From positions 434,001-498,000 of the forward strand of contig WBMQ01000008.1 of NCBI GenBank assembly GCA_016630905.1: a DNA stretch of 64,000 nucleotides. Reading direction: 5' to 3'. Below are positions 2,653 to 55,213 of this stretch, piece after piece. The position numbers were made by a program, and so were the translations under genes. This DNA is from Capillidium heterosporum (Eukaryota; Entomophthoromycota; Entomophthoromycetes; Entomophthorales; Capillidiaceae). Under the pieces are notes generated by a model. That model had not been told where the DNA came from and did no database searches. It worked only from the letters and a program-made list of their open reading frames with translations. Numbering within the stretch: the stretch's first letter is position 1; each line of letters opens with the position of its first letter.

Positions 2653-3347
2653 GGTGACTTATGCTGTGACCCAGCAAGGTAGTCCATACAGTGGAGTTAA
2701 TAGGACTTAAGCAAGTAATGACTATTCTGATCTCATCCATACCGCTGAAAAACACGGGAAATGCAGATATATGGGCTTCCAGAATGTTAAGGCAAGCCAT
2801 ATAAAGCATCATTACATATCTTATGGATCAGCAAGGCCAATATCAATCGTCATTTTCGGTATTTCAAGCTCAGCAACTTTCAGCTCTGGTCCCTGTTCAA
2901 TTATTTTCAATTTGTGAAAATCCAAATAAGCTTAATGGAATCAACCTTTCCTTTAACTAGATTCCCTTAGTCTAACCGATGGAGGCAGTTCGAAGTTGGA
3001 TTAATAAAACTATATATACAACTACTATAAAAATATTGTTTCTTTTATTTAATTAATTAGGTGCAATTTTTCATTGGCTTTATTCCAAAGTAAAACTTTT
3101 GCCAATACAGATTGAAAATAGGTTGACATTTCAACTAAGTATATCCATAATATTTTAAAACGCTTATATTTCCTTATATACGATAACTTTGCACATCTTT
3201 ATTTTTAAAATTGAGGAGACATCGACTGTATTAGTACTAGGAGAAAGTTTCCATTTTGTCAAAATGTTGGATTTGAAAGGTCAAAAGATATCAAATTTAT
3301 AGATGGAATTTGTCTATTGAACTGCAAAATATTAAAACATTCCAAAA
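2653..3347. other. No gene recognised
   Basis: AT-rich sequence between the small secreted-protein candidate and the first copy of the 1.4-kb inverted repeat. The ORF on the minus strand at 2546-2812 is largely antisense to the candidate gene, and the one at 3259-3447 runs into the repeat edge. Neither has family features. Confidence 0.4.
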
Positions 3348-4753
3348 ATCTAAATGCTAGGTTTGGATATAAATTAAAGTTTGTTTGTAAAATCTTTACA
3401 TTGGTATTTGAGCCACTGCTACTCTTAAAGTTGGTTCTACCTATCATGCTACTTTGCTATCGAAACAGCTATTGTATTTGATATGGAATCTACAAGTAAA
3501 CTTGGAGGCTGGAGAACCTTCGTTAAACACTCCAGGAATTGTGAGATCTCTTACCACATTCGGTTAAGAGATCAAGTCGCCCATAGAACTGCTCCCTAAC
3601 TTCCAAGCAAGGAAGCTGAAATTGAAGCAAGCAGCTCATCCTTTACGAGGTACGAGAACCTTAACTTGGACTTTTTACCAATATCTGGCTTGCCAACTAG
3701 GTTCCTCAAGTTGATTACAAGAAGACTGGTGCTTAAATCCACATCAAATGCATTGGATTATTCATAACTGATGCTTATTGCCTTTATCTGCTGCAATTGA
3801 TCCCTATTGCGTATGAAGCTTAATGTAGCTGTGCCCGATTGTAGGTTTATTTTGTAGACTGCAATTTTACACACTAGCTTGCTATCAGCAAAGGCTAAGT
3901 ACAGATCTAGCCGCCCAGCACATTATGCTTTATCAGTAATTGTATATCGTAAATTGAAAGGAGCTACATACATCCCCATTCTTCAACTTTAGCTTTCGCT
4001 GAAGTCTGTTGAAATCCAATGAACTTTTGGAAAATATTACCAAATCCATCCATTAAAGTTTAATACTGGGCCATAAGTAGATTTACAGATGAAGCTAAAT
4101 AGCTTATACAAGTATAGTTTGATAGATTTTGCCTAGAGATATGGAGCTGTAGGATGATTTCTTTCCTTTATACAGTTTAGCTAGTGACGAGTGTTGTGTA
4201 TAGCACTACATTCCTATATTTTAAGCTTACTTTAAGCAGCTTTAATAGCAACAGATAGCGTCTACTGTAGCTCCTATAAAGCTTGGAATGGAGGCTTCAC
4301 ATTTGAAGCTCCATTATCTAAGCCTACCATTGACGATCCAGTTCTTGATTAATTGATCATATATAGCATCAATTCCATTCTATCTCTAATTGAGAGAGCA
4401 AGGCTTTTTGTTAGCCTATCTTCAAAACCTACAATAGCAATCATCAGCGGTAGGAAGATGGCTCTTCGACTTTTTGCCATTTGTCGAAAATATGATGTTG
4501 AGATTGACAGGCCTTCTGGTATGGACCTTAGCATTTTGACAATAGTTATCGCCTCCAAGGTTAAACCCGTATACACCTTGGGGTATGAAAACTTTTGTAG
4601 TACGAAAGTTAGCAATTTAATGTAGTAGGGCCATCTTCAGCTTGCATTTCAAGTAAGTTGACTACCTAGTAGCTATTCGAACATCAAGTTCCATTCATCC
4701 TTGGCTTTGTAGCTTTCAAATATGCTTATCGATGCATTAGTAAAGTTTAGTAG
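3348..4753 (+). repeat. 1.4-kb long inverted repeat, copy 1
   Basis: The sequence from about 3348 to 4753 is present again, reverse-complemented, at about 15454-16864. The copies are nearly identical: by eye I found one substitution and five 1-nt indels. The outer edges are abrupt. I saw no terminal inverted repeat, long terminal repeat, poly-A tail or target-site duplication, so the element class is unknown. Each copy carries an ORF of about 90 codons open on both strands (here 4353-4625 plus and 4349-4615 minus) without a recognised domain. It could be a fragment of a mobile element or an ectopic duplication. Confidence 0.85.
4353..4625 (+). other. Both-strand open ORF inside the inverted repeat
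   Basis: A 90-codon ORF runs plus and an 88-codon ORF runs minus over the same bases (4349-4615). The second repeat copy holds both with a single coding difference. The plus-strand product would contain a hydrophobic beta-like stretch, then basic and Gly-rich segments; I recognise no family in either strand. Because the copies hardly differ, conservation here cannot prove coding. It may be part of a transposon-derived gene. Confidence 0.25.
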
Positions 4754-5548
4754 GAATTGATAACGTACTTCGAAAAGAGGATGCGCGCTCAAGAGTATGA
4801 TGTATTGTATTGGAATGTGTAAAAGTAATATGGATGCTAAAACTCATATATCTAGTAGTTTAAAGATGGTTAAGTCCTAAATGTGAACAAAGGAGGTAGT
4901 AAATAGTATACTACATTGATTTTAGATAGTGGATTTTTTTAAAACTTTAGCGATGTTGAAATATAATGTCCAAACTACAACCTAGTAGTAGAGCTAGACC
5001 TAATAAATTCATTATTGTTAGACTAGAATGTACATTAGGGGCCTGCTCAGTAAGGAATTAGTCAAAATATCCATTGATACCAAAGTTTTGAAATCCTGTA
5101 TTAACACTCATACTAAAAAGCTGATACAAACTGTAGTAAACCAACCACATACACCTCTAAGATTTTATTTGCAGTCCTCGATGTTCTGGATTGACTTTTA
5201 AGCTTATTCATTATTGATGCAGAGACTGGATATTAATAAATTGGCTTTTAAAGGCCGAACTTACATCCCAGTATCCAGCTATAAATTTGTAACCAATAGG
5301 TAACAACTTGCCCTACTGGCAGGTGCAGACTGTAACCCTATAAAATAGATGTTTTCTACGCTTTAGAACATCATCAACTGTTGGTAATCCTATAGTATGT
5401 GACTAAAAATTATAGATAGGTAATTGGCCCGATTACATACTATCTTTCATATCAAACACAGTATTTTCGGTTATATATAAACTCATTATAAAATACTAAC
5501 AGGTAATATACAGTAGCAACAACAATAAAATATATTTTACATTTAATA
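4754..5548. other. No gene recognised
   Basis: AT-rich spacer between the inverted-repeat copy and the minus-strand secreted Cys-rich gene. No ORF, RNA or repeat was recognised. Confidence 0.4.
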
Positions 5549-7877: not shown

Positions 7878-8477
7878 ATGAAGTTCCAAACCATCGTACC
7901 CTTAGTTGCCTTAGTACTCATCTCTGCTGTAACTGCCGGACCAGTTGACGAGAACACTTTACCTAACGACCTAAGTGCCCAGAACTACAGCCCTGAACCT
8001 GGCTATGACTTGGATAAGCCCAACTTTGATGATCTCAAGGACGACCTCAAAGACAAAGTAGATGGCATCAAAGATGATTTGAAGGACAAAGTAGATGGCA
8101 TTAAAGACGACTTGAAGGACAAAGTCGAAGATATCAAGGATAAAGTTGATGGCAAGTTAGATTGCATAAAGTGCAAGATCATCAAAAAATTGGAGCTCCT
8201 CAAGCATCTCAAGGCTTGCCTCATCAAGATCAAGCTCGAGAAGTTGAAGAAGATCATCGAGCTGAAGAAGAAGTTCTTCAAGAAGAAGGTGTGCAAGGAC
8301 AAGTTTGAAAAACCTGACTATTGCAAAGAGAAAGATTTACCTAAACCTTACCGAGTTGTCAAGATCGAAGGCACTGACTCTACTACCTTCACTGAGGATG
8401 ATTTGGGTTTCAATGAGGACCGAGTCAATTTCATCACCAATTCTAACGACGACATCATCGATATCATGCTTGGTTAA
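7878..8477 (+). CDS. Secreted protein with charged 11-residue tandem repeats
   Basis: This intronless 199-residue ORF has a classic signal peptide (residues 1-20, ending Val-Thr-Ala-Gly). Residues about 52-92 are tandem copies of an 11-residue unit, K-D-D-L-K-D-K-V-D-G-I: three full units and a shortened fourth. The heptad-like spacing of Leu, Val and Ile suggests an amphipathic helix or coiled coil. A very Lys/Leu-rich segment (about 95-135) follows, with five Cys in total, then an acidic tail. I recognise no family. The fold is probably an extended helix and the protein is probably extracellular. It stands alone, with gene-poor DNA on both sides. Confidence 0.75.
   Translation: MKFQTIVPLVALVLISAVTAGPVDENTLPNDLSAQNYSPEPGYDLDKPNFDDLKDDLKDKVDGIKDDLKDKVDGIKDDLKDKVEDIKDKVDGKLDCIKCKIIKKLELLKHLKACLIKIKLEKLKKIIELKKKFFKKKVCKDKFEKPDYCKEKDLPKPYRVVKIEGTDSTTFTEDDLGFNEDRVNFITNSNDDIIDIMLG
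8028..8150 (+). repeat. 33-bp in-frame tandem repeat
   Basis: A 33-bp unit encoding K-D-D-L-K-D-K-V-D-G-I recurs about 3.5 times inside the secreted-protein gene. Third-position differences between units show the copies are not brand new. Confidence 0.8.
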
Positions 8478-13410: not shown

Positions 13411-15453
13411 TTTAACTCTATCACAAAATCTAACAACAGAATCTAACGAAACAATATGTATACTAACTGGGAACAACAAGCTATTTACAAGTTTTGAGCT
13501 AATCGAGTGGTGGAACTGAGAAGCTGGCAACGATAGAATTGGCACTAAAACTAGAAAAAGGATAAACCTGGTAAGGCACTGAAAATTTAAGTTTGGTTGG
13601 GATTGGAATTGCTCGCTTAGGTTATTATAGCCAATCTCAGATGACCAGACTTAATCAAACTGGAATCCTTTTAAGGCAATAATACGATGGCAGGAATTAG
13701 GTGGGCAGCTAATTAGTTTAGCTAGCTTAGAGTATAGGTTGGTTGGGTTGGTTGGCAATATAGACAGGGAACTGGAGGGTAGTGGCGCTGGGCGACTTCT
13801 CGAGCTGATTTCAAACTTAGTTGTAACGTAGGTGGACCGACGAACTTGGGAAGAACTGAAAAGTAAAGGCAAACTGAACGGCGAATTATTTACAGATATG
13901 TACAGCTGGACCCTACTCTATTAGGCGATAAACAATATGTACAGACACCTTCAAGGTGAAGGATAGCTAGAGTCGATAGTTGGTAAAAGCTAATTCTTGG
14001 GAACTAGCGCTCGAATTAGATAAATAAGATAAAAGGTAACGAGGCTATGGGCAAGTGCAAACTAATAACAAAGTTGAGTTTGTCGGTAAGCTGAGAAAGG
14101 TGACTTCAAACGTAGTTTAGTTTGGAGTGGGTTAGGCAGTAGTTGATATAGTCGAATCAGGTAAAAAACTCTATTAGCTTGGGGAAGTCAATAAACTTAA
14201 ATAGGAATTTTTGTAAAGGGGTTTTCAGATCAGCTATTCCATTTCAACTGTAGTCGACGGTTTCACTTATAAAGCATCCCAAGCCGCAGTTTGAAGGTTT
14301 AAATTAACATCAGTAAAGTGCTTATATTGAATATTTGGGGGATTGCTTAGCTACATATTCATCCTCCAATAAATGGTCTGTATACCCATCGCTTATATTT
14401 GCCATTGGCCACTGCTGCTGAGTCCATATATTTTAGAAAGGTTCTTCCAGATCATCAACCATTAGATTGGTGATTATCGTTAGCTCTGGAGTTTAAATTC
14501 AAAACACAGGTGCGAACATCTAAAGTACCAGGTGTCAACAGCTATACTAGAGGCCGTTAACGACATTTTAAACCGAAATATGTACTAACTACATGCCAAT
14601 TAGGAAGGTTTTTCAATTGCAGATCTATATATGTACCGAATATTGATTTGAACGTCGCATTCAGTTAGGCGTGGTTTTGAGTTTCTTATAGTACTTTGAC
14701 ACATTCCTTCAAATAACAGAGAAATTCGATGGAACACTAAGAAAGCACAAAGTTTAATCATGTGTCTCAATGGAATTTTAAGGTTCTAGATCGCTGGAAC
14801 CCAGCTTCATAATAGATACCAATACCTAAGTTTTTTGTGCAGCTGTTAATCTGAGCAAAAAGCGAAAAAATATTGTAAAATTACGAATTGTACCAATCCA
14901 AAATTATAGATGGTTTTTTATAGGCTTAATCGTAAAAGGTTACTAAATTTATCGGAACAGAATAATACAGGATAGGCTTCTAAATGGTGGGTAGAATGAT
15001 AAAGCTGTATTAATAAAAGGATGGTTTTGGAGCGTTTAATTGGATAAGTTTAAACTTGTGGGTAGAATCAGGTAGTACTTTGAAAATCTGAAATAAAAAT
15101 CCATTTAATAGATACTTTGATACATTTTGATGACAACTAGTCATATTAAGCTAAGTTAATTTAAAATCACGTATGTATACATCTAAAAATAAACAAATGC
15201 TTTCAAGAATTCAACACACCATCCTTAAACCTCTTTCAAATATGTAGCTAAATTTCAAATTGATTGCATTTTAGTATAGGTTTAACTTTAAGATTATTTA
15301 ACAGTTATTTCAGAACATAGTTTTCACTTTTAGTACAATCTGATGAGCTAAATTATCATTTGGTTTCCCAAGCAGGTAGGCTTGATGGATGTCTGATCAA
15401 TCTAACATAGATTTGTGTGTTATACCTTTATTTTTGAAAGATGTGATTAATCT
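13411..15453. other. No gene recognised; probable promoter of the RRM gene
   Basis: The first few hundred bases should hold the 5' UTR and promoter of the minus-strand RRM gene; no clear TATA box was seen. The ORF at 13651-13872 (minus) has no family features. The rest is AT-rich without structure I can name. Confidence 0.4.
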
Positions 15454-16864
15454 CTACTAAACTTTACTAATGCATCGATAAGCATATTTGAAAGCTACAA
15501 AGCCAAGGATGAATGGAACTTGATGTTCGAATAGCTACTAGGTAGTCAACTTACTTGAAATGCAAGCTGAAGATGGCCCTACTACATTGAATTGCTAACT
15601 TTCGTACTACAAAAGTTTTCATACCCCAAGGTGTATACGGGTTTAACCTTGGAGGCGATAACTATTGTCAAAATGCTAAGGTCCATACCAGAAGGCCTGT
15701 CAATCTCAACATCATATTTTCGACAAATGGCAAAAAGTCGAAGAGCCATCTTCCTACCGCTGATGATTGCTATTGTAGGTTTTGAAGATAGGCTAACAAA
15801 AAGCCTTGCTCTCTCAATTAGAGATAGAATGGAATTGATGCTATATATGATCAATTAATCAAGAACTGGATCGTACAATGGTAGGCTTAGATAATGGAGC
15901 TTCAAATGTGAAGCCTCCATTCCAAGCTTTATAGGAGCTACAGTAGACGCTATCTGTTGCTATTAAAGCTGCTTAAAGTAAGCTTAAAATATAGGAATGT
16001 AGTGCTATACACAACACTCGTCACTAGCTAAACTGTATAAAGGAAAGAAATCATCCTACAGCTCCATATCTCTAGGCAAAATCTATCAAACTATACTTGT
16101 ATAAGCTATTTAGCTTCATCTGTAAATCTACTTATGGCCCAGTATTAAACTTTAATGGATGGATTTGGTAATATTTTCCAAAAGTTCATTGGATTTCAAC
16201 AGACTTCAGCGAAAGCTAAAGTTGAAGAATGGGGATGTATGTAGCTCCTTTCAATTTACGATATACAATTCACTGATAAAGCATAATGTGCTGGGCGGCT
16301 AGATCTGTACTTAGCCTTTGCTGATAGCAAGCTAGTGTGTAAAATTGCAGTCTACAAAATAAACCTACAATCGGGCACAGCTACATTAAGCTTCATACGC
16401 AATAGGGATCAATTGCAGCAGATAAAGGCAATAAGCATCAGTTATGAATAATCCAATGCATTTGATGTGGATTTAAGCACCAGTCTTCTTGTAATCAACT
16501 TGAGGAACCTAGTTGGCAAGCCAGATATTGGTAAAAAGTCCAAGTTAAGGTTCTCGTACCTCGTAAAGGATGAGCTGCTTGCTTCAATTTCAGCTTCCTT
16601 GCTTGGAAGTTAGGGAGCAGTTCTATGGGCGACTTGATCTCTTAACCGAATGTGGTAAGAGATCTCACAATTCCTGGAGTGTTTAACGAAGGTTCTCCAG
16701 CCTCCAAGTTTACTTGTAGATTCCATATCAAATACAATAGGCTGTTTCGATAGCAAAGTAGCATGATAGGTAGAACCAACTTTAAGAGTAGCAGTGGCTC
16801 AAATACCAATGTAAAGATTTTACAAACAAACTTTTAATTTATATCAAACCTAGCATTTAGATTT
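15454..16864 (-). repeat. 1.4-kb long inverted repeat, copy 2
   Basis: Reverse complement of 3348-4753, lying 10.7 kb away. Relative to copy 1 it has extra single bases near 15874, 16271, 16740 and 16837, lacks one base near 16845, and shows one substitution near 15588. The both-strand ORF of copy 1 recurs at 15582-15858. The opposite orientation means the interval between copies could form a long hairpin stem or invert by recombination. Confidence 0.85.
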
Positions 16865-23491: not shown

Positions 23492-24694
23492 TTGAAGATC
23501 CTTTATACATTTAGCTTCTCAATTAAGGATAAATCGAATGAGCAACCATCCTTCTTGGACTCCAGCTCCATCAATGTCGACTCAGTTTATAAGGTAGATC
23601 AGACTGTTGCAAGTATTCCATTCAATAATTGGGTTGATGAAAAGGTAATTTGTTTAAATTTATTCTATCAAGCTGAATTTACCTTACCTTCAGCTTAGAC
23701 TATTTTATAGTTCGTGTTTAGGAACTAATCAATCAGTAGCTATAGCTAAGGTAATCTTCACATCAAATATCTGTTGATAAATTTAAATTTAGATAGGTGG
23801 AAAAGTCTACAATATTGGTGAGTCTGGAAAGGATGATCAATTCATAGTAAACGACATAGGAAAGGCAAAGGTAAACTACCAATTTATTGAGTATATTCAT
23901 AGCTATTTAGTTAGTCTTTATGGTAAACTAGTATAACGATAGTTCAAGTGAATAGCAACAACAATGAGATATTAGTTTTCAAGGGTATGAATGCCGAGGT
24001 CAATAACGACAATATCGTAAAGGCTTTGAACGGTAGAAAGGATATAGGTTATATTTTTTATTCAAAATGAGTTGAAGATTTCCCATTTAGCTAGTAGTGA
24101 AGCAGTAAAATTAGATACTACCATGTTTTAAAGTTCTTGAACCAAAATTTGCTTTTATTGTATATTTAGATATATCAGTCGTATTCAACTCATCGCCAAT
24201 AACCCCATCCTTAGTAAAGGAGATCCCAAAAAACACGGATTGTTTGATAGTCAACCGAGGTGAATTAGAGTTCTTTTATGAGACGATTGTACGAGATCAG
24301 AACTAAACATCAAAAAGTCAGCTAAATACACTGGAAAAAGTTTACAAATAGGCGATTATTTGATCGAACTAGAGAGTAGCAAGTTCAAGCTCTAGGCCAT
24401 AGCTTTTGGTAAAGATCCGGTGTTAATCCTAAGTAATCAATATACCTACTGTTGGATCAAATTTCTCAACTTCAGTCTACCGGTAATCGATACTGCGGGA
24501 GCTGATAATTACTTCTTAGACTACCTGTTGACTAAGTTATCAATTTTAGAGGAATGGGATATCAATTTGGATTTTATGTATAATACCGTCCAATTTGCTA
24601 ATTAGGCAGCCGCGTTATCGGCTACCAAGCATAGAGCTGCTACTTTGATACCTACGTTGGTAGAGGTGGTGAGAAGTATTTTACAATTAAATTG
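23492..24694 (+). pseudogene. Ribokinase (PfkB family) pseudogene
   Basis: Pieces of a ribokinase can be followed in order. S-I-N-V-D-S-V-Y-K-V lies near 23562 (family: G-S-I-N-x-D). G-T-N-Q-S-V-A-I-A-K near 23720 is the N-Q-x-V-A-x-A sugar-binding segment. Then come G-G-K-V-Y-N-I-G-E-S-G-K-D at 23797, V-V-F-N-S-S-P near 24180 followed by D-C-L-I-V-N-R-G-E, D-T-A-G-A-D near 24490 (family: D-T-x-G-A-G-D, one Gly missing) and A-A-A-L-S-A-T near 24605. In-frame TAG codons at about 24394 and 24604 interrupt aligned sequence, and the first exons do not join in frame. Some introns may survive. Active ribokinase phosphorylates D-ribose with ATP; this copy should not. Confidence 0.75.
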
Positions 24695-25348: not shown

Positions 25349-26395
25349 ATGCAACCCAATATCCCCACCAAACTTCACTACTACAACCATGACAAACACG
25401 ACAGTCGCTTCAGTTTAACTGATGCAGGAGGAAAATCGACATTCAACTTGAAATTCAACAGGCGTAAGGCCAAGCTCAAGTGTACCAAAGGCACTAGGGA
25501 CTGTGTAAAGATCACCTTCCGACACCAAGATCCAAGCTCATGTGGGAAATTTATACTCGAGTTCAAAAGATATAAGTTCAATAATTTTGTAGTCCAATTC
25601 GTGGATAGTCAAACGATAAAGCTCGAAGAGTTCGGCAACGGTATCGACAGAACCAAAGTATTAAATATCTATTACAGCGGGTACATCGATGGAGAGTTCA
25701 AGTTAATCGACACCAACCGAGTTCCCATCTTAAAGTTCCAAGGTAAGTCGTCCTTAGGTTCCAACTTCGATACCCTAGCTTTAGATGGGATGTACGAGTA
25801 CCCCAAGTACCTAGCGCTCCTATTCACTTTTACCCTCTCGATCCACAGTGTGCAATGTGCTAGGAAATATTCCAATCGTAACTCTAGTTGCAAGAATTAC
25901 GTTAATAAGGACGATATCTTCTATACCAAGCTATCACAAAGCAGTCCTTCCAATATCTGTCACTTATGTAAAGTGGGAGGCTGTTGTAGGATAGACAGCC
26001 ATAAACATAAAGGTAAGCCTTCTGCCCATAGGTATGAAAGTAGTAGTTCGAGTGGTTGTAGCGACCTGGAAAATGAAAAAGATACTAATGGAGACTACCG
26101 TCATTTCAACTCTCATCCAAATAACGCTAGGTCTAGTGAAGCTAATAATGCTTACGAAAGTGGTGCCTATTACAAGCCATCGAATTTCAACGAAGGTTCA
26201 AGCAACCAAACCTACAACGCACATTTCCCTAGAGATGAAAAGATAGATGTATCGCAAGATCAAAGGACTCAAGTTGGTTGGGTTTTTGATTCCAATGCAA
26301 GAGCTTATGAAGGTACAAGTAACAATACAGATAATCAGACCGATGTACCACCAGCCTATCACTCTTTATTTGATACCACTTCTCATCAAAAGTGA
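25349..26395 (+). CDS. Family A protein 1: beta-rich domain, Cys cluster, PPxY tail
   Basis: Intronless, 348 residues, paralogous to the proteins at 27302, 49446 (minus) and 51063 (minus). Residues 1-150 form a beta-rich domain shared by all four copies (start M-Q-P-N, middle L-E-F...F-V-V-Q-F-V-D-S-Q-T-I-K-L-E-E-F). A hydrophobic stretch follows (152-170), then a C-x2-C-x4-C-C cluster (204, 207, 212, 213). The 130-residue tail is polar, Ser/Asn-rich and disordered, and carries P-P-A-Y at 334-337, a WW-domain ligand of the Nedd4/Rsp5 type. A beta-domain closed by a hydrophobic helix recalls the LURP-one/tubby/scramblase fold or fungal DUF6593, but that is inference. The hydrophobic segment could also be a membrane anchor. 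Confidence 0.75.
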   Translation: MQPNIPTKLHYYNHDKHDSRFSLTDAGGKSTFNLKFNRRKAKLKCTKGTRDCVKITFRHQDPSSCGKFILEFKRYKFNNFVVQFVDSQTIKLEEFGNGIDRTKVLNIYYSGYIDGEFKLIDTNRVPILKFQGKSSLGSNFDTLALDGMYEYPKYLALLFTFTLSIHSVQCARKYSNRNSSCKNYVNKDDIFYTKLSQSSPSNICHLCKVGGCCRIDSHKHKGKPSAHRYESSSSSGCSDLENEKDTNGDYRHFNSHPNNARSSEANNAYESGAYYKPSNFNEGSSNQTYNAHFPRDEKIDVSQDQRTQVGWVFDSNARAYEGTSNNTDNQTDVPPAYHSLFDTTSHQK

Positions 26396-27301: not shown

Positions 27302-28621
27302 ATGCAACCCAACTTCCAAATCAAATTCTACTACTTCAACGACGACCAACGTGGTAGCTACTTCCGATTAGAAAATCACCAAAGAGAGCCCATATTCAAC
27401 ATAAACTTTACTCGACAGAAAGTTAAACTCAAATGTGCCAGAGGGAACCGGAACTACGTCCAAATAAACTTCAAAGATCAAGATCCAACTATATGTGGGA
27501 AATTTAGACTCGAGTTTGAAAAGCCCAAGTCCCAGAATTTTTTAATTCAATTCGTTGACAGCCAGACCTTGAAACTTGAGGAGTTCAACAACAGCAATAA
27601 CAGCAAAGTGCTAAATACCTACTATTGCAAGTATAGTGATGGGGAGTGGAAGCTGACCGATAATTTGAAATCCCCAATCGCAAAATTCAAAAGCGGCTGG
27701 TTTCTAAGTTCCAAGTTCGGTACCTTAACTTTTGACAGGAAGTTTGACTACACTACATATCTGGCTCTACTGTTCACTTTCACCCTTCTTATCCACGTCG
27801 TACAATGCTGGAAGAAATACTCCAGCCTTAGTGTTGATTGTAAGGACGATGTAAGTAAGGATAGAATATCCTACGCTATAATATCAAAGCGTAGTTTTTC
27901 AAATATCTGTGAGGTATGTAAGGTAGGGAGCTGCTGTAGGTTCGTCAAAAGTAAAGCTAAAGGAAAACGTGATGGTAATAAAGTTAAAAGCAGAAGTTAT
28001 GATGACCGTACGAATGTTGATAGTGCATGCCATACTGACAAGGTTTATGATCTGATCAACTTTGATGCGGATGACATCGAGCCTGCTAGTAGTAAAGGTA
28101 CCTATACTGATAACGTGGATTACAATCCATTCAACTTCGATATAGGTACAAGTAGCTGGATCCATAATGTCTGCCTTGTCAACAATGATTCCAACGACAT
28201 CGACGTCTCGTACGATCCCTTTAACTTCAATCCAGACAACATTAGGCATGTTAGTAGCGAAAGTATCTACAATGAAAGCGTAGATTACAACCCATTCACG
28301 TTTGATGTGAGTACGAGTGACAAAATCCACGGCTTACACTCCACTAAAGAGTATTCTAATTATACTACTGATGATGCTAGTGTAGATTATAACCCATTCA
28401 ATTTTGACGAAAGTTCGAGTAATCAAATTCACAACGTACATTTTGATAGAGATGAAAAGTAAATATATTAGGAGCTGCAGCCGATCAATTTGATGAAATG
28501 GCTGATACATCTTATAACCCCAATACTTGGGTTGAAGCGGTTATAGATGATAATACAGAAGCTCATAAGGATACACCACCGAGTTATGAGTCCTTGTTTG
28601 ATAGCAGTTCCTACCAGGAGT
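27302..28621 (+). CDS. Family A protein 2: NPF-repeat tail, C-terminal PPxY behind a -1 frameshift
   Basis: The ORF from 27302 gives 386 residues and stops at 28460-28462. The beta-rich domain (1-148), hydrophobic segment (about 152-169) and Cys cluster (203, 206, 211, 212) match the other copies. The tail then has four spaced copies of a unit around V-D-Y-N-P-F-N-F-D: three N-P-F and one D-P-F. NPF binds EH domains and DPF binds the AP-2 ear in endocytosis. After the stop, the -1 frame continues for about 54 codons to TGA at 28619-28621 and contains P-P-S-Y-E-S-L-F-D, the same tail end as paralogues 1 and 3. One missing A in the AAAA run at 28455-28458 explains this, either as a recent mutation or as a sequence error. 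Confidence 0.7.
28115..28440 (+). repeat. Degenerate in-frame repeats encoding NPF/DPF units
   Basis: Four copies of a unit around GTNGATTAYAAYCCATTCAA (the second copy encodes Y-D-P-F) recur at about 28117, 28204, 28279 and 28382, spaced 75-103 nt, all in frame. Family A gene 3 has one such unit and gene 1 a broken one, so copy number varies between paralogues. Confidence 0.7.
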
Positions 28622-30922
28622 GAGGAAGAGTGGTATATTTGCATAAAAATAAACACTAGTTACTCTTGCATGTGCCTATAGAATAGTTTTATATATTGGA
28701 TGTACAAAGGGATGGTTTTAAGGTCGAAGAATGTTGGGATAGTCTATGAATCTAATACATCTCGTCAAAGAAATCAAGGTGTTTTGATAAATTTAATGAA
28801 TTTTGAATCTAATTTAACTTTATACAAGTTATCAAAATACATCTGTTAAATTACCTGGCTATAATAAAGGAGCCCATATAAGCATTACTTCCAAGTTGAA
28901 TTTGCTTATAGATACTACTATAGGCACTAACTTTTATAGCTGTGATTCATCCTTGTACGATTATCGATTTTTATCCCTAAATCGGCCCAACCGCATTAAA
29001 ATTTCAAAACTATATTTTACAAAATAGTATTTCTATGTGCTGATAACTCTATTTTGATTTATAGATTGTATCCTTTATAACCTGTAGCTGTTGCTCACAA
29101 ATATCAAACTCATAATAGAAAATTAGCAGTATTTTGCAATGAAGTGAAAATGGGATCCAGTAGCATTATATAGTGAAAATTGGCATATATTATTAATTAC
29201 TATTGAAACGAATGTGATAGTCAACTATAGGAGGCTTTTCCAAGACACAGCCAAGGAAAAAGTCTGTAAGTGGAGTATATAAGGTTTCTTATCAATTGTC
29301 CCCATTACCTTTTTGCTTATAGGAATATTTCAATCATATGTTGTAGTCCAATTTTTTCAATAGATTTCAATTCAAGATACTTTGGAACATATTTTTGTAG
29401 GTCATCTATAACACCTTTCTTGCAATAAATATACAAAGAATGAGAAAATCAGGTAAGTCTATTCATAAAAATAGACAATTTGAATTATAAATTATGCCAA
29501 TGTATATAGCCATTAAACGCTATTTCACTATCTGTAGAGTTCAACCGTTTATGCAGATATATTTAGATGCTTGTATTTGTACTTACAGCTTAAAAATTGA
29601 TATAGTATAGTTTAATAAATATAGCTGTTAAACGTTATTCTGCAGTTTAAAAGATGTGTGGTTTAAAATATATCTATATTTATAAAGGTATAGTATATAG
29701 CTTTTTCAAAGTGCTAATTTAGATATTTGTAAATAGAAGGCTTCCGAGCAATATATTTGTAAGCAAGTACCCGTAAATTTAAGCTCTATACAGAATGGTT
29801 GACTAATTTTAAATGTACCTACTGCTAGCTTTAGGTTGCTCTATAAATATAGATATGCTTTGTGTTTTGTTCAAAATAGTTTGATCGATAGCAGTAAATT
29901 TTTTAGAGAATAAGCCTGTCATGTGAAGCTTCAGTTCCACAAAGCCGATGATCAGGTCATAGAATATCGATAGATATGCTACAAAATCCGGTACACATTT
30001 ACCTATTTTTCAAGTTAAATTGGAGACATTATAACCTGTATATGCCTCTTATGGCTAGGTTTTTGGTCTCAACAAGCATCGAGAACTTCCTTCCAACTTG
30101 CTTTCAAGGCAACCGGTAGTACTTCAGGATATATCGAAAATTTTCAAATAGTTTGAAATTGGACTGCAAGGTCAAGTTAGTGGTTCATTATAGACCAAAG
30201 ATGGTTTTACGACAAAAGCCTCCATATCTCAAAGATTTATTAAGTGTATGTAATGTAGAACTGTCTATATTTGAACTTTCTCAAGGTTCATGATGTAACT
30301 AACTAGAAAGAAGAGCTCATCACCAATACGATAAAGAATAGTAAGATAGTGAACTCATAAATTTTAATTTTATGCTTATACGACTAACCTATCCAAATTG
30401 AATAGAAAGTCTTCATTCTTATTTATCACCTCAGGAAGATTTGAGGCTAAAAGCTACCATACTCCGATGAAGGTGCAGTAAAAATTTGCCAAAATAGAGG
30501 GATTGCCTTTATATATAGATCTAGCCCTACTTTTCATTTGTCCACTACCATGTAGCTATTTTAATTTAGGCTATCCATTTATTTTCTATAATTATAGCAG
30601 AATCCACATTGGTACTTTTCCCAATTAGTAGTGTGCTTAAAGCTGGTAGAAAGTCGAGGCGAGGTCAACCTGACATTTGACAAGTAGCTAAAGGTACGGG
30701 TATTGGCCAAATATATATATCTTGCATATGGGTATAGGCCTACACCATTTTAGTTTAACAGACTAAACCACTCGATTTGGTTAAAATTCTATGACTCATG
30801 TCAACAACCATTAATCGAGATAAACTATCCCATGATCCGACCTAAGATATACTTTCAGATACTTTAGGCCATCCAACTATTCGCAGAATTCCAAAACTTC
30901 AAAAACCTACGAAGATAAAGAG
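28622..30922. other. 2.3-kb stretch without a recognised gene
   Basis: AT-rich. A TATATAAGG box near 29275 followed by an ATG and a GTAAGT-like donor near 29441-29460 resembles a gene start, but no continuing exon was found; it could be a promoter relic. Confidence 0.35.
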
Positions 30923-30993: not shown

Positions 30994-32262
30994 ATGAAGT
31001 TTGGCAAGCAACTACAGGAAGAGATGCAACTTATGCAGCCAGAGTGGCAACGGTACGTCATTCCCTACAAATCGTTGAAGAAGGCATTGAAGGTGGAAGG
31101 TGAAGATCTCAAAGATACCGACGACTGGGCACCTCTATTAGCAACACTATGGTCCGACCGCATCGAACTTCTAACCGATATCTGTCAAGACTTTTACGCT
31201 TCCCACCCTAATATGGACAAGATGTTCTACAACAAACTCAGTCAATCTCTTGTCGGCCTGAGGATTTTCTTGGACCAAGCTTTTATAGATACCAAGCACC
31301 GTATCCTCATCTTGAAGGAAGAACTCAACAAATCAGTATGTTTAATTTGATATAGATTTTGCGCTTGTAAACTAACCTAAGCCTTTTAGACCAGCCCATT
31401 TGAAAAGGACTTTAAGGTTTGGTAAAATTTTCAAATATGAAGCTGTACTAAACTTTTATGTTAGGAAAAAGATATTGGCACTGTACCACGATTTTGACTT
31501 GTGGGATATTCAAACCCTACACCAACTAACTTTTATAAACTACGAGGCATTGCAGACTCAGTTTGAAAAGTTTTTATCCAAGTTACAAAAGTTAGACCTC
31601 GTAACTCCAACCAATTCAAAAATATAAACTAACCGTTCTAGATAAGCAAGTTTACTCTGCCCCACAATAACGACATCATGCTCACTTTCCTAGAGGTAAA
31701 TTTAAATAGTAATTAGCATTTTACTGACTCAATTTAGGCCAACAAGCAGATGTTGACGTTGCTACGGTTCTGCGAGTTGAACCAAAGAGCTGCCCTCAAG
31801 ATCCTCAAAAAGTTCAACAAGACAACGAATCACAATCTCAGCTTAACATTAGTTAAAACTGACCTATCGCCATTGAGTTCCTATCCCAAGCATATGATCG
31901 AACTGTGGTGGGATATCATCGACAACACGCTACCTAAACTGCAAGACTTTTTATGTCCCATATGTATGGATATATGTTGGAAACCTACACGCTTAATATG
32001 TGGTCACCTTTTCTGTCACTGGTGTTGTTTACACGCCCAAATGAACCATAGAAGGGATTGCCCTATATGTAGGAGTCAGAACGCCATGTCTCGAACTGAT
32101 CAACTACGTATCGACAAAGCTTTGAAGAACCACCTCAAATTATATTTCCCGGACGAAGTCAAGTTGAGGAAAAAGGATCAGGATAAAGAGTTGCTACTGA
32201 ATGAAATGCAGAATGTCCAGGGTGCTGAATTTATAGCTAATGCCAACTGTAGTGTTATGTAA
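30994..32262 (+). CDS. SPX-RING E3 ubiquitin ligase, paralogue 1
   Basis: Five exons (30994-31335, 31390-31421, 31465-31600, 31642-31695, 31738-32262) give 362 residues. The SPX domain covers about 1-217: start M-K-F-G-K, then P-E-W and Y-K-S-L-K-K, and finally K-I-L-K-K-F-N-K, the basic residues that bind inositol pyrophosphates. A C3HC4 RING follows, with Cys/His ligands at 261, 264, 276, 278, 281, 284, 296 and 299. SPX-RING proteins (plant NLA/BAH1, Neurospora RING-14 type) are phosphate-status-linked ubiquitin ligases; plant NLA marks phosphate transporters for removal. The 32-nt exon 2 is kept in the paralogue at 46141-47429 with identical phase and length. It lies next to the family A genes in both arms of the mirrored block. 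Confidence 0.88.
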
Positions 32263-46140: not shown

Positions 46141-47429
46141 CTACATTATGGTACAGTTGGCGTTGGCAAGCAACTCGGCTCCCGGTGCATGGTTCATCTC
46201 ATTTAATAGCAGCTCCTTATCCTGATCCTTCTTACGGATCTTAACTTCATCGGGGAAATACAACTTCAAATGATTCTTGAGAGCCTTATCGATGCTCAGC
46301 ATATCGGTACGCGCCATGGCATTGGGATGTCGGCACAGCGGGCAATCCCTCTTGAAGTTCATCTGGGCGTGTAAACAACACCAGTGGCAAAAGAGGTGGC
46401 CACACACGAGGCGCGTAGGTTTCCAACATAATTCCATACATATAGGACACAAAAAGTCATCCAACTTGGGTAACGTCTTGTCAACAACTCCCCACCAAAG
46501 AAACAACATCTCTTTGGGGTAGCTGGTCAGAGGGCTGAGATCAGTTTTAACTAGGGTGAGGTTGGAGTTGTTATGAGTAGCCTTGTTGAATTTCTTATAG
46601 ATCTTGATGGCAGCTTTTTGATTCAATTCACAGAACTTGAGTAGAGAGAGCATTTGCTTGTTAGCCTACAGTTTTTCAAAAAAATGGGCTGAGATGTTAG
46701 TATCATTTTTAAAAATTTAGTAAAGAGTACCTCCAAAAACAAAAGTAAAGTGTCTCGGTTGTCGGCTGAAGATAGCTTGTCAGCCTACTTATTATTAGAC
46801 TAGACATTCAATAAAAAAGGTACCAGCTTCAGTTTTTGTAATCGCTGTAAGAAGGCATCAAACTGCTCTTGCAACGGTTCATATTTGAGGGTATTTAATT
46901 GAGGCAGCGTTTGAATGTCCCATATATCGAAATTGTGATATAGAGCCAAGATTTTCTTCCTAGTCCTAAAGTTAGCACTTGATAAAGCTAACTAAAAATA
47001 CCAAACTCGGAAGTCTTTTTCAAATGGGTTGGTCTAAAAACAAGTGAGTCAGTTATAGTTTCCTATCCATTAAAAACTTACCGATCTAGTCAGCTCTTCT
47101 TTCAGAGCTAGGATCCTAGTCTTGGTATCCAAAAATGCTTTATCCAAGAAAAGCCTTAGACCTACTACCGCCTGACTCAGCTTAAAGTAAAAGAGTTTGT
47201 CCATCTCGGGGTGACTGGCGTAGAAATCTTGACATATCTCGGTTAATAGCTCTATTCGGTCGGACCATAGCGTAGTTAACAACGGTGCCCAACTTTCGGT
47301 TTCCATTCCTTCTAAACTGTCGCCATCCTTCTTTAAAGCTTTCTTTAAGCTCTTGTAGGGAATTACATGCTTTTGCCACTCGGGATTTATATGTTGGAGT
47401 TCGCCCTCCAGCTCTTTACCAAACTTCAT
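46141..47429 (-). CDS. SPX-RING E3 ubiquitin ligase, paralogue 2
   Basis: Five exons (47429-47082, 47033-47002, 46965-46824, 46784-46731, 46665-46141) give 366 residues. Exons 2, 4 and 5 are 32, 54 and 525 nt, identical in length to those of the paralogue at 30994-32262. SPX domain about 1-221 (M-K-F-G-K, P-E-W, Y-K-S-L-K-K, I-K-I-Y-K-K-F-N-K); C3HC4 RING ligands at 265, 268, 280, 282, 285, 288, 300 and 303, all present. The C-terminal part (RING and the K-L/K-I-R-K-K-D-Q-D-K-E-L-L-L-N-E-M end) is the most similar between copies. The linker around exon 4 has diverged more (A-D-K-L-S-S-A-D against I-S-K-F-T-L-P-H). Both copies look functional. Confidence 0.88.
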
Positions 47430-48366: not shown

Positions 48367-49446
48367 TCAATCTTGATGCGAAGAATCGAATGCTGATTCA
48401 TAACTTGGTGGTGCATCCGTATGAGTAGGTGTCCAGCTACTTGTAACTTCTTCGGCGCAAAGATCGGAATTAAAGAGTACACAGGCTGAATCCATACTTT
48501 GATCTTTTGGTGCCTTCATAACACCTGCCCTATCATCTCTATCGAATTGTACAGAATGGATTCGGTTACTTGTATTTGCATCAGAGCTAGATGAGTGGTA
48601 ACCTATGTCTCCAGCGTCGAAATTAAACGGATTCAAGTCTATACTTCCAGCATCAGAACCTTTGCTTCCAGTAGATTCACTATCGTCCATATAGAAACCA
48701 GTTAGGTCGAAGGCATAATCAGTACAACTTAAATTATCAAAGTTGGTGCGGTCACTCAAACTACCATCTTTAAATCCATCGGCACTAGGCTTAGCTTCAA
48801 GTTTGGCGAGCATACAGCATCTTCCTGCTTTACATACATCACAGATGGTCGATTCGCTAAACCACAGGTGAGTGTAGAACTTTCGATCCCTATTTACATC
48901 GTTGTCACTCAGCTTACGTTTAAAGTATTTCTTGTCACACTGCACGCTGTGAACTAGAAGGGTGAAGGCCAACAGGAGTGCCAAGTTCTTGGGGTGCTCG
49001 TACCCATTATCCAAAACTAATGTACCGAACTTGGATTCCAAGAACTTGCCAGCTTCGAACTTAGCGATGGGGGACTTGAAACTGTTTGTTAGTTTCCATT
49101 CGTTGTAAATTGATAGGCTGTAGAAGGTGTTTCGTACTTTGGCACCGTTGGTGCCTATGGCGTACTCTTGAAGCTTTAACATTCGACTGTGGACGAATTG
49201 GATGGTAAAGTGATGAGGCGTAGGCAGATTGAATTCGAGTACAAAGTTTCCACATGGACTGGAACACAGCTTTTGAAAGTTAATTTGGACGTAAGTCCCA
49301 CTGCCTCTAGCGCATTTGAGTTCGGCTTTAAGTTTCGTAAAGTTTATATTGAATATAACATCATTTTTCGAATCTTTTAATTGGAAGTGACTGCCGTGCT
49401 GGTCGTGATCAGAGTAGTAGAGTTTGATGGGATAGTTTGATTGCAT
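48367..49446 (-). CDS. Family A protein 3: beta-rich domain, one NPF, PPxY tail
   Basis: Intronless, 359 residues. The beta-rich domain (1-150, start M-Q-S-N-Y-P-I-K-L-Y-Y), hydrophobic segment (about 154-170) and Cys cluster (202, 205, 210, 211; C-x2-C-x4-C-C) match family A genes 1 and 2. The tail has one L-N-P-F-N-F-D unit, the block N-R-I-H-S-V-Q-F-D-R-D-D shared with gene 2, and P-P-S-Y-E-S near the C-terminus. This tail makes it closest in design to gene 2, the copy at the mirrored position. A TATA box lies 38 nt upstream. Cellular role unknown; the motifs suggest a membrane-associated protein that meets EH- and WW-domain proteins. Confidence 0.75.
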   Translation of the reverse strand: MQSNYPIKLYYSDHDQHGSHFQLKDSKNDVIFNINFTKLKAELKCARGSGTYVQINFQKLCSSPCGNFVLEFNLPTPHHFTIQFVHSRMLKLQEYAIGTNGAKVRNTFYSLSIYNEWKLTNSFKSPIAKFEAGKFLESKFGTLVLDNGYEHPKNLALLLAFTLLVHSVQCDKKYFKRKLSDNDVNRDRKFYTHLWFSESTICDVCKAGRCCMLAKLEAKPSADGFKDGSLSDRTNFDNLSCTDYAFDLTGFYMDDSESTGSKGSDAGSIDLNPFNFDAGDIGYHSSSSDANTSNRIHSVQFDRDDRAGVMKAPKDQSMDSACVLFNSDLCAEEVTSSWTPTHTDAPPSYESAFDSSHQD

Positions 49447-49492: not shown

Positions 49493-50427
49493 CTAAGATT
49501 GCGGTCAATCTTTTGAAAATGTAAGTGGAAAAATACATATCATTGATATATGTTCTTATGAAATTTTTGGGTAGGAAGGTTTAATTTTTAATACTCAAAG
49601 GAGAAGTATATATTTGATAATAGCAGAAATTCAAATTGGAGATGAAGAAAAATATATGAACCGTGGCTTTTAGTATTCCATCTTAATTCCAATATTGCCA
49701 AAAATTCAACAAATATAAATCTAATTGAAAAAGATCTTCATAAGAACATATAACCCGTCGTTTTACATATTTTTATAAACTCTTTGATTATATTGATATT
49801 GACTGAGTTTCTATCAAGGTTAGGACTCCATTCTGCCAAGATTTTTGAATCTCAAAGATCTAAAGTATAAGAACTTTTAGAAATGAAGCTTTTATACTTG
49901 ACTGAAAATTAAATTGAATAGCTCTAAATTTTGAATATACTTATCAATAAATTGAAAATACATGTTTGTTAATTTATGTTTTAAAAATAAATGTATGATA
50001 CTCAAAGCTACGCTAGGACAAAAGTACTATAAGAATATCAAACTACTGGCACTATATATATACTATTCCTTGGGCAAATATTTAGTACTCCAAATTTTAT
50101 TTAGAAAACCGTGCAAATCATCAAATCTCAGTAGACTGGTATTAACTGATTGTTATAAATATTAGAATCTTCGCTACTGATGGGTATAACGTGATTTGGA
50201 TTGTAAGCTTCATCTAGATCTTTGAAGGAGAGTCGACATGACCATTACAACTACTACTTTCAAATTAGTTGATAGCACCCTTAGCCTTGGTTTTAAATTT
50301 AATGAACTTACAACATCCATAACTTTGCATATCTTATAGTAGCGTTTCTCATTAGGGTTCAAAATAAAATTACTTTGTTTAAATTATTAGCAGCTTTGTT
50401 TAGTTTTATTATTTAAAATCGCACTAT
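49493..50427. other. No gene recognised
   Basis: Spacer between family A genes 3 and 4; the plus-strand ORF at 49962-50165 looks like chance AT-rich sequence. No clear remnant of the missing tail of gene 4 was found in it. Confidence 0.4.
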
Positions 50428-51063
50428 TTAGATTTGGTGAGAAACACTGCCTTTCAAGTGTGAAAAATTACATGTCGCTAATTTAGCATAGAAAGCTAAA
50501 TCCTTATCAACCTCATAGTCACGAGTAAAATCGAGTTTAAAATACTTTTTGTTACATTTTACGCTATGAATGGCAAGAGTGAAGATGAGTAGTAGGGACA
50601 GGTACTTGGAAAGCTCATACGCCTTGTTCAAAGTCAAGGTACCGAGCTTAGACTGGAAGAACCAGCCACTTGCAAATTTTGCGATTGGTACCTTGTTTTC
50701 GTCGGTCAGTCTCCATTCCCCATCTATAAATCCACCGTAGTAAGTATTACGTACTGAAAAGCTATAAGGACCATTATTGAACTCCTCAAGCTTAATCGTT
50801 TGATGATCGATGAACTGAATTAGGTAGCTTGTTGCCTTTTTATTCTTGTACTCAAGTTTAAATTTGTCACATTTGATTGGATTCTGATCCTCGAAGTTGA
50901 GTTGAAGGTAGTCTCCATGCCCTTTTGCTGACTTCACATTGGCTCTTTGGCAAGTAAAGGTGATATCGAAGCTGGGATTTCCTTTAGAGTCAACTAAACT
51001 GAAATGGCTTCCTTGTTGGGCTTTGTCAGAGTAGTAAATGTCGATAGGGTAGTTCGGTTGCAT
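50428..51063 (-). CDS. Family A protein 4, truncated (no tail)
   Basis: Intronless, 211 residues. It has the full beta-rich domain (start M-Q-P-N-Y-P-I, middle Y-L-I-Q-F-I-D-H-Q-T-I-K-L-E-E-F) and the hydrophobic segment Y-L-S-L-L-L-I-F-T-L-A-I-H-S-V. It stops where the other copies have the C-x2-C-x4-C-C cluster and the long polar tail. Just before the stop, residues look like a decayed version of the cluster. The PPxY and NPF motifs are therefore absent. It could be a natural tail-less variant that competes with the full proteins, or a gene in decay. A TATA box 50 nt upstream suggests it is still transcribed. Confidence 0.7.
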   Translation of the reverse strand: MQPNYPIDIYYSDKAQQGSHFSLVDSKGNPSFDITFTCQRANVKSAKGHGDYLQLNFEDQNPIKCDKFKLEYKNKKATSYLIQFIDHQTIKLEEFNNGPYSFSVRNTYYGGFIDGEWRLTDENKVPIAKFASGWFFQSKLGTLTLNKAYELSKYLSLLLIFTLAIHSVKCNKKYFKLDFTRDYEVDKDLAFYAKLATCNFSHLKGSVSHQI

Positions 51064-54239: not shown

Positions 54240-55213
54240 CTAGTTCTGTAGACGGATGCCGTAGCACAAAAGGATGACGATGGAGGCTAATGAAACCAGC
54301 ACCACGTTCCATAAGAACCCAATGGTGTCAATAAAGATACCTACCTCCGGTACACTGGGAAAGGTACTCCGTAACGTAGGTAAAGCGAACAAGATCATAA
54401 GGCCATTGGGTAACAAGGTAGGTATGACGTCCCGCTTATCAACGAATATTTGGATTGATAGCCTCAAAAAGGCCAAAGTCAAACCCCACTGCGTCAGCAA
54501 CAAAAGAATGGAAAATATCTTGACTATGTCCGTTCTACTTACATCTATCTGCATGTAGACTTCGGGTTGTGTTATCACTTTCTTCAAATCGATTTTCTTT
54601 AAATTGCTAGATTGATCATCTACTAGGTCAGCCTTCAACGACTCTGGTAACGATTCAAAGAGGATGGGTGCCAGTTCGGGATACTTTTGCGAGCTAATGG
54701 TCTCTTCAAATAAAGAGTAGATACCGAATTTGCAGCTATAGGTCTCGAAGGGGTACATGAGCTCACTTCCTTTGTCCATAGGTATTTTGACTCGCTTGTC
54801 TCTAAGAAAAAATCTACATTAGCACATATTTGGGATATATCTGTCACTACAGTTTGAAAGTTTGATTGATTAAAAAGTCATGCTGATTCTCGAAAAAGTA
54901 AAAAGTGAAATTGGTCTTCAACTTCTTACTGGGGTTCTCATCTTCGAAATAGGATTTACCTAAGTTGACCTGGTATCGTACTTCACAGTTGCGTGCTTTA
55001 ACGTCGACGTTCAAAAGCGAGACTAGTAGGCTTACTTTGTCTTTGTACATTTCTGTGTTGTCGAATAACTTTACGGTTTGCGAATCTTTAAAGTTGTCGG
55101 CTTGGCATCGCAGGTATAGACCTACGAATAGCAAGATTTGGAATAGGAGGAAAGACAGTATACCTAAAGTGGATTTGAATCGGAACTGTCTGGTACCAAA
55201 GCTTGGAACTCAT
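54240..55213 (-). CDS. DUF4436-type membrane protein, probable 1-nt frame disruption
   Basis: Exons 55213-54851 and 54801-54240. The N-terminal part has a membrane segment (S-F-L-L-F-Q-I-L-L-F-V-G-L-Y) followed by a beta-rich extracytosolic region, including Y-P-F-E-T-Y. The C-terminal part has three membrane segments with L-F-A-L-P-T-L-R and G-F-L-W-N, features I know from DUF4436 proteins, whose function is not established. The start is uncertain. The first ATG (M-S-S-K-L-W-Y) is in a different frame from the first membrane segment, and one base near 55192 must be skipped to join them (then 307 residues). An unseen upstream exon is the alternative. A TATA-like AAATATATT lies about 85 nt upstream. 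Confidence 0.65.

Follow-up and report, generated by a model that had tools for sequence, protein, structure and literature searches.

What do four related open reading frames (ORFs), repeated within a single stretch of the genome of Capillidium heterosporum, encode? The stretch of 64,000 nucleotides (the window) covers positions 434001-498000 of contig C43 (WBMQ01000008.1), in a genome of 29.5 Mb and 44 contigs, and our question centres on the frame at 25349..26395, here called A1. An earlier reading of the letters (the original prediction) had taken these frames for a new membrane-trafficking family whose NPF and PPxY motifs link it to Rsp5-type ligases. Our analysis supports this in part: the fold stands by prediction, while PPxY is found in two of the three full tails. 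We see an even chance that the window proteins are cytosolic, membrane-peripheral members of a new tubby/LURP-one branch, trafficked by ubiquitin and the endocytic machinery.

Four paralogues share a predicted tubby/LURP-one-like barrel

The four frames belong to one family and lie where the original prediction had placed them. They and their elements are as follows.

25349..26395, plus strand: A1, 348 amino acids; predicted tubby/LURP-one-like barrel (residues 1-174), Cys cluster and long tail with PPAY; no NPF or DPF
25958..25987, plus strand: Cys cluster CHLCKVGGCC of A1 (residues 204-213), followed by basic residues
26348..26359, plus strand: PPAY of A1 (residues 334-337), a PY motif
27302..28462, plus strand: A2, 386 amino acids in frame; barrel, Cys cluster and tail bearing NPFx2D three times and DPF once
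28124..28141, plus strand: NPFNFD of A2 (residues 275-280), of the NPFX(1,2)D type
28214..28222, plus strand: DPF of A2 (residues 305-307), within DPFNFN
28289..28306, plus strand: NPFTFD of A2 (residues 330-335)
28391..28408, plus strand: NPFNFD of A2 (residues 364-369)
28462..28623, plus strand: out-of-frame extension of the A2 tail, separate from A2 as the letters stand, containing PPSY (28576-28587)
48367..49446, minus strand: A3, 359 amino acids; barrel, Cys cluster and tail with one NPFNFD and PPSY
48616..48633, minus strand: NPFNFD of A3 (residues 272-277)
48400..48411, minus strand: PPSY of A3 (residues 346-349)
50428..51063, minus strand: A4, 211 amino acids; barrel alone, tail lost
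50274..50345, minus strand: decayed Cys-cluster remnant downstream of A4, split over frames (by eye)

Identity to A1 is 40-43% in the full alignment and 46-53% across residues 1-175. Among A1-A3 the barrel domain is 46-53% identical and the remainder 27-40%, and the tail tags differ between copies, in line with the earlier claim of a conserved domain with motif content varying by paralogue. The C-x2-C-x4-C-C cluster is likewise present in all three full-length copies (residues 204-213 in A1, 203-212 in A2 and 202-211 in A3).

The predicted model bears out the proposal of a beta-rich domain closed by a hydrophobic helix. The guess of a LURP-one/tubby/scramblase-like fold is also supported, as structure prediction and fold search give a 12-strand barrel around a C-terminal hydrophobic helix, which aligns with the LURP-one structure over residues 1-169. 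By prediction, the proteins thus belong to the tubby C-terminal-like fold (Pfam clan CL0395), while at the profile level they fall outside the curated LOR, Tub and Scramblase families. In hmmscan of 14 of the 18 open copies that we read in the genome, no match was found to PF04525 (LURP-one related; E up to 10 was asked, HMMER filters dropping most matches above 0.1), PF03803 (phospholipid scramblase) or PF01167 (Tub), and the genome itself, searched with the first two of these profiles, gave 0 matches to either. DUF6593, named in the original prediction, was not matched in these Pfam scans, and the term is absent from the open-licence papers searched. Sequence profiles compared with the PDB gave 0 matches with 4 rows; the 11-row version matched neither LURP-one nor tubby, its best hit being an antibody chain (E 0.77). 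In the protein database none of 404 and 1054 candidates scored at E<=10. As a control, the 926-amino-acid M28-type protease of the window matched a single chytrid protein (23% identity) out of 7993 scored candidates. Since the control shows that the database is nearly void of close fungi, the absence of the family there means little.

A wider family in the genome

Genome searches at E<=10 returned 16 matches with one copy as query (self included), 18 with a C1 copy, 12 with a C38 copy, and 10, 3 and 8 with distant copies, some rows being pieces of one copy. The open copies that we read, named by contig and position, are A1-A4, C43:1011k, five on C1 (two with an open N-end), C38:476k, C44:1281k, C12:2989k, C38:305k, C6:421k, C38:347k, C43:795k and C32:1951k. 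Further copies, broken or partial, are found at C23:617k, C38:477k, C43:554k, C1:1847k and C1:941k. Thirteen genome stretches were taken up, seven read for frames and six (L016-L021) covered by profile scan alone, with no match listed. For the profile scans, run on 741 frames from the fetched loci and on four frames, the database size was set to 200000.

A profile of the 11-row alignment scored C44 at 5.1e-10, C12 at 9.9e-9 and C38:305k at only 0.31, so that membership of the last is weak. Among copies found later the same profile gave 3.9e-5 for C38:347k, 0.14 for C43:795k, 1.5 for C6 and 2.3 for C32. The last three are linked through the C12 copy (1.2e-28, 4.2e-24 and 2e-12, respectively), and the resulting C12 group of four aligns to the 11-row profile with a probability of 97.0 (E 1e-10, 166 columns). 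Because of these scores and the group-to-profile alignment, C43:795k, C6 and C32 are included, and belong with the C12 copy. A1-A4 form one group (98/94) in a 14-row tree, with C43:1011k next (94/98), while the distant rows are long-branched and of uncertain placement. Instead of PY/NPF tails, the copies at C1:1044-1048k (L009) end in Gly-rich stretches, in some of which Cys residues are scattered. A non-standard CTG code was considered and dropped, as CTG falls in three columns where 5/5 aligned copies have Leu; the standard code was used.

Tail motifs exceed chance expectation in part of the family

The original prediction placed NPF or DPF in two copies, and this holds: A2 has three NPF and one DPF, A3 one NPF. 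Among the 18 open copies NPF occurs in A2 and A3 only, and so does the NPFX(1,2)D type; the other 16 lack it, including A1, whose tail has neither NPF nor DPF and reads KPSNF in the aligned stretch. Residue shuffling of the A1, A2 and A3 tails gave an expectation per tail of 0.004-0.013 for NPFx1-2D and 0.005-0.013 for PPxY. None of 5000 shuffles reached the three NPFx1-2D of A2, while single motifs are less striking (P 0.018 for the A3 NPF, 0.013 for the A1 PPxY and 0.005 for the A3 PPxY). DPF, which also occurs in the C43:1011k tail, is at chance level in both tails (P 0.061 in A2, 0.047 in C43:1011k); one C1 copy has a further DPF within the barrel.

PPxY had been claimed for all three full tails. 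It is present in A1 (PPAY, 334) and A3 (PPSY, 346), but the PPSY of A2 lies in another frame beyond the stop codon at 28460-28462. An intron with donor 28459 and acceptor 28558, the sole pair tried, does not restore the A2 frame.

Defined more broadly as [LP]PxY, a PY motif is found in 10 of the 18 copies and near an end, outside the folded domain, in 9, whereas shuffles would yield 0.91 summed over the copies. The motif lies within 15 residues of the C-end in A1, A3 and C43:1011k, and near the N-end in C44 (LPSY, residue 6), C12 (LPIY, 3), C38:305k (LPSY, 11), C43:795k (PPSY, 6) and C32 (PPNY, 25); that of C6 is LPDY at 283 of 314. All four rows of the C12 group keep the P and the Y of the motif at the N-end (LPIY, PPSY, SPDY, PPNY). 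In a small, hand-picked set of 15 other proteins of the genome there is 1 PY match in 6362 residues.

Candidate partners are encoded in the genome

NPFX(1,2)D is recognised by the SHD1 domain of Sla1, with DPFxD, NPF and DPF as less effective variants, in the passages available from PMC7889276. The genome has one match to PF03983 (SHD1; C44:1251572, E 2.0e-25), whose frame also carries SH3 and SAM_4, and thus contains a Sla1-like gene. Because of the NPFxxD spacing and the presence of this gene, we consider the tag more probably a Sla1 ligand than the EH-domain or AP-2 ligand proposed before. HECT gave 9 matches at four places; at one of these, C23:839991-841116, three WW matches lie upstream on the same strand (841509-842089). 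This arrangement, three WW followed by HECT, is the layout of Rsp5. The Sla1-like gene (C44:1251572), a family member with LPSY (1280870) and a HECT gene (1290841) lie within about 40 kb, which may be chance.

Genomic setting of the four copies

An SPX-RING gene follows the tandem pair A1 and A2, and an inverted copy of that gene stands before A3 and A4.

30994-32262, plus strand: SPX-RING gene, copy 1, with short introns (read by eye), adjoining the A1/A2 pair
46141-47429, minus strand: SPX-RING gene, copy 2, inverted, with short introns (read by eye), adjoining the A3/A4 pair

The two copies form an inverted repeat (31717-32261 against 46142-46686, 71%; 31114-31343 against 47074-47303, 70%). 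Since they adjoin each pair, A1/A2 and A3/A4 are probably the arms of an old inverted duplication. A second inverted repeat of about 1.4 kb (3346-4776 against 15431-16864, four pieces at 94-100%, about 10.7 kb between) may represent either a recent inverted duplication or the ends of a mobile element.

Sugar-kinase-like frames (type assigned by eye) occur at 24115-24605 of the window and at 3521-4093 of locus L015, and broken ones precede A1. At C43:553.5k an open sugar-kinase-like copy adjoins a broken family copy, which suggests that kinase-like frame and family copy were duplicated as one segment. The window further contains a minus-strand frame with a DUF4436 match (54240-54779, E 2e-12), a plus-strand protein with a hydrophobic, secreted-looking N-terminus (by eye) and tandem DLKDKVDGIKD repeats (7878-8477), a DNA2-like frame, a tRNA-Trp and the M28-type protease frame, whose single database match carries PF04389. 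The last three, with the short introns of the SPX-RING genes and the standard code, would suit a yeast-like fungus.

Discussion

In the reading that we favour, the barrel would bind a lipid or lipid-linked ligand, as its fold suggests, and the Cys cluster, followed by basic residues, may be S-acylated and tether the protein to the membrane. The PY motif would bind WW domains of an Rsp5/NEDD4-type ligase and the NPFx2D repeats of A2 and A3 the SHD1 domain of a Sla1-like coat adaptor, motif and receptor being present in each case. On this view, ubiquitin and the endocytic machinery would control trafficking and turnover of the protein, much as NEDD4-2 does for PLSCR1. Because the duplicated copies keep different tags, localisation or turnover may differ between them.

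Several points weigh against this reading. Foldseek E-values are all above 0.001, the query-normalised TM (template modelling) score is 0.43-0.46, with an unrelated chain in second place; the copies scanned match no Pfam LOR, tubby or scramblase profile. The function proposed rests on short motifs, whose counts are guides, related copies not being independent observations. NPFx2D is restricted to two copies and missing from A1 itself. In-frame PY is missing from 8 of the 18 open copies (A2, A4, four of the five on C1, C38:476k and C38:347k), and the sole PY of the fifth C1 copy (LPEY) lies within the barrel. The Cys cluster could bind metal instead of being acylated. Beyond the barrel, divergence among A1-A3 is 0.42-0.50, 0.42-0.45 and 0.51-0.59 at the three codon positions; as all three diverge to a similar degree, this is a sign of weak constraint on the tails.

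It is possible, if rather doubtful, that the proteins are instead Rsp5 adaptors, in which the barrel recognises membrane cargo or lipid and PY and NPFx2D bring in ligase and Sla1, in the style of the arrestin-related adaptors with a different fold. PY is kept at opposite ends in divergent copies, as if recruitment of the ligase were what is conserved, a family of many copies whose tags vary would suit cargo diversity, and the ligase and a Sla1-like protein are both encoded. Yet none of the 18 proteins read has more than a single in-frame PY, eight copies have none, no cargo is known, and the closest precedent, PLSCR1, is itself a substrate. A shade more doubtful is the version for the family as a whole, with the barrel sensing lipid or cargo, PY at either end recruiting the ligase and tandem NPFx2D coupling some members to Sla1-dependent endocytosis.

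Quite unlikely, in our view, is a hydrophobic helix that spans the membrane, with the beta domain on the far side or tail-anchored and the tail bearing NPFXD and PY as sorting signals of ordinary cargo. The classical hydropathy threshold for a membrane helix is 1.6, and the helix stays under this in 4 of 5 copies; moreover, it lies inside the predicted alignment to the LURP-one barrel, and the N-terminus is not hydrophobic. What speaks for a spanning helix are the Cys and basic residues that follow it, the occurrence of NPFXD in membrane cargo proteins, as described in part of PMC7889276, and PLSCR1, which a review, in the section available, describes as tail-anchored via its C-terminus with one transmembrane domain (PMC9158361).

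No likelier is that the copies are decaying lineage-specific duplicates whose motifs persist as relics without a current function. The out-of-frame tail of A2, the lost tail of A4, several broken copies elsewhere and the divergence of the tails at all codon positions would fit such decay. However, PY is retained in distant copies, and in the barrel codons of A1-A4 divergence is highest at the third position (0.48-0.57, against 0.25-0.34 at the second), silent sites being near saturation and the ratio of non-synonymous to synonymous change (dN/dS) unusable for most pairs. A selfish toxin-antidote family, multi-copy, clustered, fast-changing and PY-bearing, with PY steering its own trafficking like the fission yeast wtf genes, is highly improbable, since wtf antidotes do bind Rsp5/NEDD4 ligases via PY motifs but wtf proteins are multi-transmembrane, unlike the barrel, in the parts of PMC10721834 at hand.

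If the favoured reading is true, the window holds a new tubby/LURP-one branch, missed by Pfam profiles, in which a barrel is joined to NPFX(1,2)D and PY signals, a combination not seen in our searches of open-licence papers; lipid-binding barrels would be linked to Rsp5 and Sla1. About 18 open members in one genome (14 of them scanned) are left unlabelled by Pfam, and natural copies with gained or lost tags are ready tests of the role of each tag. The adaptor reading, if true, would add a second adaptor fold alongside the arrestin-related ones. If confirmed, the family would comprise new players in membrane traffic.

Comparison with known systems

The predicted barrel of the window group aligns with the structure of the LURP-one related (LOR) protein At5g01750 (1zxu); the group differs by lacking a PF04525 match and by adding a Cys cluster and PY tail, with NPFx2D in two copies. 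With the C-terminal domain of tubby/TULP (1i7e, 1s31, 2fim, 3c5n) there is no sequence match, and the barrel is at the N-end in the window group and at the C-end in tubby. PLSCR1 is also a member of the tubby superfamily. In excerpts of PMC10584680, tubby-like proteins are described as phosphoinositide binders or as scramblases. For PLSCR1, the available sections describe a palmitoylated CCCPCC and PPXY (PMC9158361), and NEDD4-2 binding partly through PPxY with ubiquitination by NEDD4-2 (PMC12368045). The window group resembles it in having a Cys cluster and PY, and differs in that PF03803 is not matched, the Cys cluster follows the barrel and PY is at the C-end. NPFNFD and NPFTFD of the window group fit the NPFX(1,2)D motif of yeast Sla1 cargoes such as Drs2 and Dnf1. 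However, while Drs2 and Dnf1 are integral membrane proteins, the window group carries the signal on a predicted peripheral protein.
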